Virus record (IMG/VR): IMGVR_UViG_3300025109_000030
Span: 1-36,698 of that record
Length of the DNA stretch: 36,698 bases
Direction: 5' to 3' (one strand)
Source of the DNA: a virus
Below are positions 6,981 to 16,633 of this stretch, piece after piece. How positions within the stretch are numbered: position 1 is the stretch's first letter; each line of letters starts with the position of its first letter. The translations under genes were made by a program, and so were the position numbers. A model generated the notes under the pieces. The model saw only the letters and a program-made list of their open reading frames with translations. It was not told where the DNA came from and ran no database searches.

Positions 6981-7247
6981 ATGAAACGACTATCAAAGCA
7001 AAGCATCAAGAAATATAGCGCCCATCAACTAGCGAAGCATATTGAGCGCTTCATGGATTATTACGGGATCGACGACTACCGGATTGACTTAGTGACCAGC
7101 CGCGTATTCAAGAAGCATTGGTCTTCAACACTGCCCGAATCATTAGGGCCACACTCTTACCGGTTCTATTTTGCATACTCTGCCCCACGCGGATTGCTGG
7201 GTATTCTAGATGAGGTCTACTCTAAAGCAGACAAAAAAAACCAATAA
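6981..7247 (+). CDS. Unknown small basic early protein
   Basis: An 88-residue protein, not recognised. Unlike its neighbours it is basic (KRLSKQSIKKYSAHQLAKHIERF at the start). The middle has several aromatics (FMDYYGIDDYRIDL, HSYRFYFAYSAP). No transmembrane segment or metal site is visible. ATG at 6981 follows CCAACAAAAGGTTCACATC, the purest form of the shared early leader. It directly follows ardA by 31 bases and is probably on the same transcript. Confidence 0.7.
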   Translation: MKRLSKQSIKKYSAHQLAKHIERFMDYYGIDDYRIDLVTSRVFKKHWSSTLPESLGPHSYRFYFAYSAPRGLLGILDEVYSKADKKNQ

Positions 7248-7267
7248 CAACACGAAAGGTTCACATC

Positions 7268-7459
7268 ATGAAAAGCAGCATAGCAAAAAACCTACTCAAG
7301 GGAGCAAAAGCAGAAGCCCCCCCGATAGGCCTACTTCACAGATACGAGTGTTACCTGAGTTGCGCCGATGACGGCGACGGCTTTGAATGCGGAGATAGTG
7401 ATCGGCCTGATTACCCTATTATGGCGCTTAAGACTTTTGACGAATGGCTTGGATCTTAA
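7268..7459 (+). CDS. Unknown small early protein
   Basis: A 63-residue protein, not recognised. It has a short basic N-terminus, then an acidic, cysteine-bearing half (YECYLSCADDGDGFECGDSD; three cysteines) and ends DEWLGS. ATG at 7268 follows CACGAAAGGTTCACATC, identical over the last ten bases to the leader of the preceding gene. The gap to the previous gene is only 20 bases, so these form one operon. Confidence 0.65.
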   Translation: MKSSIAKNLLKGAKAEAPPIGLLHRYECYLSCADDGDGFECGDSDRPDYPIMALKTFDEWLGS

Positions 7460-14544: not shown

Positions 14545-14787
14545 ATGAGCAGAGGTTTCACTTATAAGAAGGTGCGGTCAGTGAAGACCGCTAGCAGAGG
14601 CAGTAGGAATATGGACGACGATGAAGAGCTCTCCTATAAAGCTATCCCTGTATTACCAGAAAGAGATAAGGGTGGTCTGAACGCCATTGAGCTTATGAGT
14701 CTTTATGAGAAGCTGATCAAGGAGAATGCATTCTTGAGAGATCGTGTGCTCAGACTAGAGCAACGACTAATGGACGTTCTGAATTAA
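14545..14787 (+). CDS. Unknown coiled-coil protein at the end of the early region
   Basis: An 80-residue protein, not recognised. The N-terminal third is basic and serine-rich (SRGFTYKKVRSVKTASRGSR); the last 35 residues form a strong leucine-heptad helix (IELMSLYEKLIKENAFLRDR and onward), so it probably dimerises. ATG at 14545 has no obvious Shine-Dalgarno sequence, but a possible promoter places the mRNA start at that ATG. It ends 14787, overlapping by four bases the 3' end of a converging 51-codon gene on the minus strand. Confidence 0.62.
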   Translation: MSRGFTYKKVRSVKTASRGSRNMDDDEELSYKAIPVLPERDKGGLNAIELMSLYEKLIKENAFLRDRVLRLEQRLMDVLN

Positions 14788-14939
14788 CGCTTGGGCCGAT
14801 AGATTTTATCTACGTCACCCTTGTCTAGCCATTTTATTATCTCCCCTTTCCTCGGTGCGAAGTAAGTAACTTTGACGCGGCTGATTGTCTCTTTGATTAT
14901 CTTAGCACCTACCACCCCATTGAAATCGCAGACTAACAT
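14784..14939 (-). CDS. 51-residue protein, last gene of the late operon
   Basis: A short frame on the minus strand with ATG at 14939 preceded by AACAACAAAGGGGTTTAAA, a strong ribosome binding site at six bases. The product begins MLVCDFNGVVGAKIIKETI and is basic and compact (two strand-like parts, KGEIIKWLDKGDVDKIYRPK at the end), with codon use like that of a real gene. It follows the endolysin by 54 bases and converges on the early gene at 14545-14787, the 3' ends overlapping by four bases. Function unknown. Confidence 0.55.
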   Translation of the reverse strand: MLVCDFNGVVGAKIIKETISRVKVTYFAPRKGEIIKWLDKGDVDKIYRPKR

Positions 14940-14993: not shown

Positions 14994-15470
14994 TCAAGTT
15001 TGTGTGTGTGGGTATTTCGTTACAAGGCCCGATCCTATTCTAGGCCAGTTATATTTTCCCTGCGAAGATCTGTACCGAGGCTTTCCAAGGGCACCACGAA
15101 AATCGATATGAACCCACGTTGGGTAGAGAATGACACCACCCTCGTCTCCAATCTCTTCTGATGCCAGGATGTAGAGCCGAATAATGTTTATAGGTGTCTT
15201 GAGTGCTGCGCTTGAGAATGTGAAGTCCGCGGCATAGCCTCTCCCGTTCTCCTGGGGTTGATGGAAGCTATTGGGGGCGCCCCCGCATTTCTTATTATGA
15301 GACGGACAACGAACACCGGAAGAGATCCGAAGCGGCACCCCAACTGTTTTCCTTACCTCTTCGAGAACATGCACCACTCCCTTGTGTACTTCATTCTCAC
15401 CGCATCCGCAGTTGCACCTGAACTCAATAGCTTGGAAATGAGGGCCTACCCACACTGAGTCATTTATCAT
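14994..15470 (-). CDS. M15-family peptidase endolysin
   Basis: A 158-residue zinc peptidase of the D-Ala-D-Ala carboxypeptidase / L-Ala-D-Glu endopeptidase type that cuts peptide stems of peptidoglycan to release progeny. The layout is typical: FRCNCGCG (17-24), PLRISSGVRCPSHNKKCGGA (46-65), NSFH with His70, GYAADF with Asp82, and WVHIDFRG with His121; these three bind zinc. The stretch between His70 and Asp82 is about five residues longer than the usual S-x-H-x-x-G-x-A-x-D. No signal peptide is seen, so a holin is needed. ATG at 15470 follows GGAG at seven bases, and the gene starts directly after the stop of the frame before it. Confidence 0.9.
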   Translation of the reverse strand: MINDSVWVGPHFQAIEFRCNCGCGENEVHKGVVHVLEEVRKTVGVPLRISSGVRCPSHNKKCGGAPNSFHQPQENGRGYAADFTFSSAALKTPINIIRLYILASEEIGDEGGVILYPTWVHIDFRGALGKPRYRSSQGKYNWPRIGSGLVTKYPHTQT

Positions 15471-15719
15471 TTACCAGCTCCACTTTAATCCTGCGGTTGC
15501 CTGCCACTCATCAAGCCCTGCCGATGCCTCTGCAAATAGATTTATGTTCTCACCGAGGCCAGCATCTGCTTGAATGAACGCCTCGACTTCTGGGCTTTGC
15601 TGATTAATATCCCAGCCCCCAGCAGCGCGTAGACCAGCGAATAAACTATTACGCTCACCACCTGCCAGCGCACTCTTGATAATGTCTTTCGCACCATCGC
15701 CCACCGCTCCAATCAGTTC
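15471..15719 (-). CDS. -1 frame extension of the holin-like gene (probable frameshift product)
   Basis: An open stretch of 82 codons starting at the slippery site, beginning ELIGAVGDGAKDIIKSAL and ending ATAGLKWSW. It has no ATG downstream of the overlap, and the only in-frame ATG upstream (15827) has no ribosome binding site; a GTG at 15704 has GGAG only two bases before it. The end has alternating residues and a terminal Trp like an outer-membrane beta strand. The simplest reading is that ribosomes enter from the 15955 frame by a -1 shift at AAAAAAG, giving a 161-residue fusion with two membrane helices. Independent initiation at GTG 15704, or a single-base sequence error in the A run, are the alternatives. 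Confidence 0.6.
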   Translation of the reverse strand, partial: ELIGAVGDGAKDIIKSALAGGERNSLFAGLRAAGGWDINQQSPEVEAFIQADAGLGENINLFAEASAGLDEWQATAGLKWSW

Positions 15720-15955
15720 TTTTTTGCTGCACGCGCCACCGCCTCTGCTGCTTTCACACGACCCCTCGAGTGGCTGTACCCGGCGCTTGCTATGCCAGCT
15801 GATACTAATCCGGCCACCATAGCCCATGTGCCGTTGATAAGGCCCTGCCCTATAAGGTTGTCGATAAGCAGAGCGACTACGGGAAGGGCAGTGCTTAGTA
15901 TAATCACCAGCGTTGATTGTTTCTTCTCGCTTGTTTTCGATCCTTCTTTATCCAC
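15713..15955 (-). CDS. Holin-like two-helix membrane protein
   Basis: An 80-residue protein with a charged N-terminus (DKEGSKTSEKKQS), two hydrophobic segments (about 15-37, LVIILSTALPVVALLIDNLIG; and 44-60, WAMVAGLVSAGIASAGY) and a basic C-terminal tail (HSRGRVKAAEAVARAAKKN). This is the layout of class II holins, which open the inner membrane for endolysin. GTG at 15955 has AAGGAG seven bases upstream and overlaps the preceding stop by eight bases. One codon before its stop lies the heptamer A-AAA-AAG in the correct frame for -1 slippage. The endolysin is one frame downstream. Confidence 0.72.
   Translation of the reverse strand: MDKEGSKTSEKKQSTLVIILSTALPVVALLIDNLIGQGLINGTWAMVAGLVSAGIASAGYSHSRGRVKAAEAVARAAKKN
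15719..15725 (-). other. Slippery heptamer A-AAA-AAG for -1 frameshifting
   Basis: On the minus strand the sequence reads GCA GCA AAA AAG AAC TGA in the holin-like frame, so A-AAA-AAG is in register, as in E. coli dnaX. Slippage by -1 bypasses the TGA at 15713-15715 and enters an 82-codon open frame. AGAGG about 16 bases upstream might act as a weak stimulator; I see no strong downstream hairpin. Confidence 0.6.
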
Positions 15956-16253
15956 TTTTCATCTCCTTGAGTGTTTCGGTCCTAACTCTCTGCTCCGCGA
16001 TATTAACCCGGACCTCTTCTCTGAACTCGCAAAAGTCTCGATGAAAGAGAGAGAGCTTCCTTTGATGCTCCTTCATCGCCTCTTCCATGTCTTTTTGTGA
16101 TTCTTCGATAAGAGCTAGACGGGTGTAGGTAGTGCCGCCATTCTTCTTTGCTTTGATTTCTTTGACGTGGTTCTTGAAGAGATCGAGCAGAGCAAAACAG
16201 ACAGCAGCTAGAATTCCAGTCGCTCCGATTTGCTCCATATTCTCAAGCATCAT
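15948..16253 (-). CDS. Membrane-anchored helical protein of the lysis cassette, spanin-like
   Basis: A 101-residue protein with one N-terminal hydrophobic segment (residues 10-26, GATGILAAVCFALLDLF) and a long charged helix with coiled-coil character (EESQKDMEEAMKEHQRKLSL and onward). An anchored helical protein next to holin and endolysin recalls inner-membrane spanins or holin regulators; no outer-membrane lipoprotein partner is visible. The start is ATG at 16253 or the next codon, ATG at 16250, after GGGGTGA; both overlap the previous stop. It overlaps the holin-like gene by eight bases. Confidence 0.65.
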   Translation of the reverse strand: MMLENMEQIGATGILAAVCFALLDLFKNHVKEIKAKKNGGTTYTRLALIEESQKDMEEAMKEHQRKLSLFHRDFCEFREEVRVNIAEQRVRTETLKEMKSG

Positions 16254-16633
16254 TCACCCCAAGGCAATCCCGATTCTGTCGGTGGATCAATCTGATTAGC
16301 AATCTGCTTCTCGACGTGAGCTTCCGACTGCGCTTTTTGCTCGACCGTCATCACAGAGAAGAGCCAACCAAGGGCCATGTCCTTAGTCACTTCTGCGTAT
16401 GGTGTGAAGTCTTGGATGTCGCTGATGTTCAAGGCACACGTTCCGATGATGCTGCCGTATGCTGTCAGTGTCGGGGTCCATCCGCTTGTGACTGGCTCTA
16501 CCCCAGGCTCTGGCTCGGGGTTCGGGTACTCGCGAGAGTCTGTGCAATTCCAGTGCAAGTTGAAGATCACCTTTTCGTGACCGTCCCTGATCTTCCAGTC
16601 GTTGCAATTTGAGATATCCCACTTTGCTGCCAT
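16250..16633 (-). CDS. Unknown conserved-looking protein before the lysis genes
   Basis: A 127-residue protein. It starts with a strand-rich part (MAAKWDISNCNDW; KVIFNLHWNCTD), followed by a proline-glutamate patch (NPEPEPGVEP), then ALNISDIQDFTPYAEVTKDM and a helical end closing in GLPWGE. I recall short phage proteins near tail fibres with a similar DFTPY...GLPW pattern, without known function. ATG at 16633 follows AAGGAAACTAGAA. It begins two bases after the tail fibre stop, and its own stop overlaps the spanin-like gene. Confidence 0.65.
   Translation of the reverse strand: MAAKWDISNCNDWKIRDGHEKVIFNLHWNCTDSREYPNPEPEPGVEPVTSGWTPTLTAYGSIIGTCALNISDIQDFTPYAEVTKDMALGWLFSVMTVEQKAQSEAHVEKQIANQIDPPTESGLPWGE

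Follow-up and report, generated by a model that had tools for sequence, protein, structure and literature searches.

To our knowledge, most of the known cases of frameshifting in phages concern tail chaperones and capsid genes. That two forms of one holin can have opposing roles is a principle established with lambda S, and it is typical of outer-membrane proteins that the last strand carries hydrophobic residues at alternate positions and that the C-terminus is aromatic. The heptamer A_AAA_AAG is the natural shift site of dnaX and is, in E. coli, more shift-prone than A_AAA_AAC or A_AAA_AAA (PMC5009743). The reading frame can also be changed at the level of transcription: slippage of the RNA polymerase on nine A is efficient and documented in bacteria (PMC5009743). 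In one survey, 91 of 677 phages had no recognisable spanin (PMC6139136). We found no case in the open-access papers searched of frameshifting in a holin or a spanin gene, nor of a holin-like gene joined to a beta-strand tail.

Here we describe a lysis cassette in which both appear to occur. It lies in an IMG/VR virus record (IMGVR_UViG_3300025109_000030), whose whole stretch of 36,698 nt was analysed and is called the window below. A programmed -1 shift near the end of a holin-like gene is our best reading of the locus. Judged from the comparison of related contigs, the shift is probably real and used, and we put the explanation as a whole (a programmed shift, two proteins from one gene, and the roles proposed for them) at a probability of about 0.68. 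Slippage as a mechanism is already known; the novelty would lie in a holin-like lysis gene that employs it and in the beta-strand tail that it adds.

The lysis cassette and its probable slip site

The features of the cassette are all on the minus strand, and are given here in the order of transcription.

16250-16633, minus strand: DUF7936 gene, which precedes the cassette in all relatives seen
15948-16253, minus strand: gene for a protein of 101 aa, which has a single TM segment at its N-terminus and a tail that is charged and coiled-coil-like; overlaps the start of the zero-frame gene
15713-15955, minus strand: zero-frame gene for an 80-aa, two-TM holin-like protein (the short form); GTG start at 15955, TGA at 15715-15713
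15719-15725, minus strand: slippery heptamer A_AAA_AAG, in register and separated from the zero-frame TGA by one sense codon (AAC)
15471-15725, minus strand: C-terminal module in the -1 frame, 84 codons plus stop; second half of a predicted 161-aa fusion with C-terminal Trp
14994-15470, minus strand: endolysin gene, peptidase M15 (Peptidase_M15_3, phrog_894), ATG at 15470

The GTG of the zero-frame gene is preceded by AAGGAG (15968-15963) at a distance of 7 nt. Its product has features of a class II holin (about 80 aa, two TM segments, charged ends and an adjoining endolysin), and matched no holin family in Pfam or PHROG. Remote homologues of DUF7936 are found inside lysozyme-annotated genes of Synechococcus phages (S-EIVl, DSL-LC07), a context hinting at a lysis link for DUF7936. 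On the other side of the endolysin lies a 51-aa ORF (14784-14939, minus strand; MLVCDFNGVVGAK...), and L005, L006 and L007 keep it in the corresponding place after their endolysin.

The preliminary description of this DNA had placed an in-register A_AAA_AAG near the stop of the holin-like gene, and it is indeed there (15725-15719): the 3′-end of the gene reads CGT GCA GCA AAA AAG AAC TGA. The -1 frame, said to fill all the space up to the endolysin, is open as far as the TAA at 15473-15471, which ends one base before the endolysin ATG (15470). Its length had been given as 82 codons, which is right for the part after the heptamer and becomes 84 when the two Lys codons of the heptamer are counted. 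The proposed product of 161 residues ending in Trp was also recovered: the fusion terminates in ...GLKWSW (the tail of the window ends EWQATAGLKWSW), and its trans-frame junction is predicted to span ...AARAAKKELIGAVGDG....

An in-register site of the X_XXY_YYZ type is present within the overlap of the zero and -1 frames in the window and in its relatives. The heptamer alone is weak evidence, since the window shows no enrichment of AAAAAA (26 copies against about 31 expected) and 6 of 9831 codons carry an in-register AAAAAAN. The weight of the evidence lies in the joint conservation of the heptamer and the -1 frame in five other contigs, and in the constraint on the -1 codons. Another A run deserves mention. 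The gene at 6981-7247 (plus strand) ends in A8, giving an in-register AAAAAAC 12 nt before the stop, and its -1 frame runs into an ORF at 7268-7459 (plus strand). This site (region 6981-7459) is probably a coincidence, because AAAGG and an ATG belonging to the downstream ORF itself would serve to start it.

Relatives carrying the layout

Six contigs, including the window, were compared, three of them close; the relatives came from IMG/VR. The viruses with this layout are uncultured marine-type viruses of bacteria. L002, L003 and L004 were found by a search with the fusion. Their zero-frame proteins are homologous to that of the window (76-96% identical, the same N-terminal family) and end KKN*, KKK* and KKN*, respectively, in runs of nine A (A9C, A9G and A9C), and their -1 frames continue for 83-84 codons into the same C-terminal module. 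The more distant cassettes of L064 and L066 were found by a scan with the endolysin alignment. In these, the upstream two-TM protein (MKKTGIKSTEFW... and MAKTGIKSTEFW..., respectively) is hard to align with that of the window, and the C-terminal module is the same. The two-TM genes end in an A8 run (TTA AAA AAA AGC TCC TAG in L064 and GCC AAA AAA AAC TCC TGA in L066), and their -1 frames continue into a tail that ends in NWGATAGLKFRW, where the window has EWQATAGLKWSW. Once its -1 frame has opened, L064 carries two in-register A8 runs in tandem. Runs of A8-A9 thus stand in register at the zero-frame end in all five relatives. Whether relatives keep both a heptamer-type run and the -1 frame had been named beforehand as a check, and each of the five other contigs does so.

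Wider searches added nothing to this set. A tblastn of either of the two fusions, or of the tail alone, against 50,697 phage records gave no credible homologue; scans of viral contigs yielded six usable cassettes only, the window included; a degenerate DNA pattern search found no cassette beyond the six; scans of genome contigs gave no matches; the relatives found by way of the portal were too short to include a cassette; and the arrangement is absent from the DUF7936-bearing phages MW202825 and S-RIP1.

Two further observations concern the history of the locus. L002 and L004 are nearly identical from the zero-frame end to about -1 codon 60 and have diverged on both flanks (pS 0.59 and 0.72), which suggests a recombination patch. 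On the L003/L006 contig, three genes, one phosphoesterase-like and two small, lie between the frameshift gene and the endolysin (L006 4500-5750).

Coding and start of the -1 frame

Selection on the -1 frame was gauged by Nei-Gojobori counts, the close pairs being window/L002, window/L004 and L002/L004. In the last 24 codons, pN/pS in these pairs is 0.10-0.15 in the -1 frame, and in the other frames is either above 2 or undefined, there being no synonymous change. Codons 27-60 of the -1 frame give 0.08-0.49 in the close pairs; the linker is looser, at about 0.6. For the module in L064/L066 the ratio is 0.33 in the -1 frame vs. 0.77 in the zero frame. By these counts, purifying selection acts on the last 24 codons of the -1 frame.

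One alternative is a separate gene, translated without any shift by coupled reinitiation at a GTG or ATG after the holin stop. Candidate starts for it can be pointed to: a GTG at -1 codon 8 in the window, L002 and L004, and an ATG at 'ESM' in L064 and L066. Across all the contigs, however, these candidates are not homologous to one another, and none has a ribosome binding site at a suitable distance. In the window, the GTG at codon 8 is the only start after the heptamer, and its GGAG is just 2 nt away. Moreover, the -1 residues immediately past the slip are partly conserved, and they lie 5′ of the candidate starts. The case is clearest in L003, where a stop closes the -1 frame three codons ahead of the A run and no ATG, GTG or TTG follows until codon 28. 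A start further upstream fares no better. The window has an ATG in the -1 frame 34 codons before the heptamer, where relatives have TTG or a stop; stops in that frame lie 7, 9 and 13 codons before the A run in L004, L064 and L066, and together with that in L003 they confine the entry point to the A runs.

The position of the junction on a homopolymer run could also suggest a sequencing or assembly error, or a decaying gene. Against this stand six contigs with the same frame relation, run lengths of 6, 8 and 9, and purifying selection. Selection on the -1 frame and the absence of a start in L003 make both of these alternatives unlikely: we regard a separate gene as improbable, and an error or decay as barely credible. 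The preliminary description had found no well-supported start for the -1 frame, which is borne out here, and had held that relatives with a clear start and no heptamer would speak against a shift; what the relatives have favours frameshifting. By comparison, then, the six contigs keep an in-register A run and an open -1 frame, the -1 frame is coding, and in at least one contig it has no start of its own.

Ribosome or polymerase slippage

In the reading we prefer, ribosomes would reach A_AAA_AAG (15725-15719), where most would go on to stop at the TGA and release the 80-aa two-TM protein, while a minority would slip back by one base and make the 161-aa fusion. An equivalent change of frame would result if the RNA polymerase slipped on the A run, giving an extra A in part of the mRNA. 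The nine A of L002, L003 and L004 and the eight A of L064 and L066 fit this equally well, and because polymerase slippage on nine A is efficient, the relatives may use the ribosome, the polymerase or both. In the window, however, there are only six A followed by G, which is the classic ribosomal site and, measured against those nine A, a short run for the polymerase; for this reason we infer ribosomal slippage as the route in the phage of the window. As an account of the locus, polymerase slippage is thus rather unlikely.

Stimulators, if any, are not simple conserved stem-loops, since no consistent RNA structure was predicted downstream of the site in the six contigs (z-scores -1.4, 0.0, -2.3, +0.6, +0.6 and +0.2). 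A Shine-Dalgarno-like sequence is found upstream of the slip site, at about 16 nt, which is further than in known cases.

A possible third product

The zero frame opens again shortly after the holin stop.

15542-15697, minus strand: small ORF (51 aa, a single TM segment) whose ATG lies five codons past the holin stop; possible third product

In the window its ATG has GGAG upstream (15710-15707); neither this frame nor the A8-A9 runs of the relatives figure in the preliminary description. All six contigs have a zero-frame ATG a few codons past the stop, followed by an ORF of 50-58 aa with one hydrophobic segment, and GGAG or AAGG precedes the ATG in the window, L002 and L004. Hydropathy was compared with that of sequences in which the -1 protein was kept fixed and synonymous codons were drawn at random. 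The maximum in the window is 2.32, against a mean of 0.3 in the shuffles (P 0.0005 or less); P is below 0.001 in L002, L064 and L066, 0.008 in L004 and 0.039 in L003. Among 161 control windows of other genes, 1.2% reached a hydropathy of 2.2 or more, and 1.9% were beaten by none of 300 shuffles. It is plausible that a third product is made by termination-reinitiation.

The same observations, namely a hydropathy above that of the shuffles, seen in only some 1-2% of control windows and repeated in all six contigs, and an ATG with GGAG or AAGG in three of them, could be taken to mean that the principal gene downstream is the small ORF (15697-15542), with the -1 frame as a by-product. This is most improbable: apart from being hydrophobic, the residues of the small ORF show no conservation (pN/pS 0.6-1.3 in most comparisons), and it is past the end of the ORF that the -1 frame is most strongly conserved. 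It should be noted that the small ORF and the frameshift can coexist.

Predicted structure of the -1 tail

The tail had no sequence match in Pfam, PHROG or PDB. A model from AlphaFold2, built on the six-sequence alignment (mean pLDDT 69.6, strands mostly 70-83), predicts a helix at residues 10-21 and strands at 27-35, 46-56, 61-69 and 74-82; the module of L066 folded poorly (pLDDT 52.7). The preliminary description had spoken of two membrane helices with a beta-like C-terminus, and the prediction agrees, with two TM segments followed by a helix and four strands. Every second position of the last strand is hydrophobic or aromatic, and the C-terminal residue is W or F. When the fold was searched against predicted viral structures, several YadA-type anchors were among the top matches (probability 1.00, with borderline E-values from 1.3e-3 and no Foldseek match below 1e-3); a fold search of the PDB gave nothing of weight.

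On the strength of this moderate-confidence fold, the added module may be an oligomerising beta-strand anchor of the outer-membrane (YadA-anchor) type, and we treat its working like an outer-membrane anchor as a lead. A YadA anchor proper is not claimed: the tail does not match Pfam YadA_anchor (PF03895), nor does it match a real phage YadA anchor by profile comparison, whereas the positive control, phiEco32 gp119, matches PF03895 at 4.5e-19.

Proposed roles of the two forms

We propose, as a hypothesis, that the short form would act as the holin. The rarer long form would link the inner and outer membranes, or permeabilise the outer membrane, in place of a spanin; this role is proposed because no lipobox-bearing minus-strand ORF was found in or near the cassette. 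A spanin-like, membrane-bridging long form is the assignment we favour, though a tentative one. The combination of N-terminal lipobox and C-terminal TM segment was not found in the long form, which is therefore not filed as a unimolecular spanin.

The preliminary description had taken the locus for a timer, with two holin forms made by frameshifting. The frameshifting in that proposal is well supported by comparison; the timer is not established, and the tail is not holin-like. Still, the fusion could be real and serve timing, the long form being an antiholin-like regulator with a cytoplasmic beta domain, made at a fixed ratio. The positive ends of the two-TM half suggest an N-in, C-in topology, and the opposed forms of lambda S would be the precedent. 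In particular, the C-terminus of the two-TM half is strongly positive, by which the positive-inside rule places the tail in the cytoplasm. Since an outer-membrane anchor is at odds with such a placement, a role in timing or as an antiholin stays a serious rival, if itself a doubtful one. On the other hand, the known regulatory extensions of holins are much smaller and less structured than the tail, which ends in an aromatic residue with alternating hydrophobic residues and is the part that phages with dissimilar N-terminal halves have in common. Because the added domain (predicted as a helix and four strands with an outer-membrane-type C-terminus) is not holin-like, bridging is at least as plausible as timing. 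More speculative, and on balance unlikely, is a new lysis protein in the full sense: a ribosomal frameshift joining a two-helix inner-membrane holin to an oligomeric outer-membrane anchor of the beta-barrel type, one gene thereby providing at a fixed ratio both the holin and a bridge that disrupts the outer membrane, with a third, small zero-frame membrane protein in the same DNA.

If true, frameshifting in such a gene would provide a ratio-setting device for lysis proteins, and it may account for the breaching of the outer membrane by some of the phages in which no spanin is recognisable. Lysis cassettes may also hide up to three overlapping products missed by gene callers.

Comparison with known systems

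The short form resembles two-TM class II holins in size, TM segments, charged ends and endolysin neighbour, without belonging to a matched family. With dnaX of E. coli the window shares the heptamer A_AAA_AAG, in register. The shift in dnaX, however, leads to an early stop and is stimulated by a stem-loop and an SD-like sequence, whereas here it would extend the protein, and no conserved stimulator is seen. The tail assembly chaperones (lambda G/GT; phiCbK with AAAAAAC, PMC3556154) likewise involve a phage late gene, short and long forms, and -1 slippage near the stop; the gene, its position and its product differ, the present site being in a lysis cassette and not before the tape measure. In the MS2 lysis gene, as cited in PMC5009743 and PMC10885494, lysis expression is likewise tied to errors of frame made while an overlapping gene is read. 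A distinct L protein arises in that case through termination followed by reinitiation, in contrast to the fusion that we infer.

The YadA_anchor family (PF03895, e.g., phiEco32 gp119) is like the tail in its length of about 60 residues, four predicted strands and C-terminal aromatic residue and, by the borderline matches described above, may be like it in fold. It differs in sequence, and the tail sits behind two TM helices, with no passenger domain. The YadA-like gene of phiEco32 is outside its lysis cassette, and phage YadA anchors for that reason lend no independent support to a lysis role. The bridging of inner and outer membranes proposed for the long form is what the spanins Rz/Rz1 and T1 gp11 do (PMC6139136), and coding in overlapping frames is common among spanins. 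The long form would differ from them in having no lipobox, its outer anchor being beta-stranded, C-terminal and joined to the rest of the protein by a frameshift.
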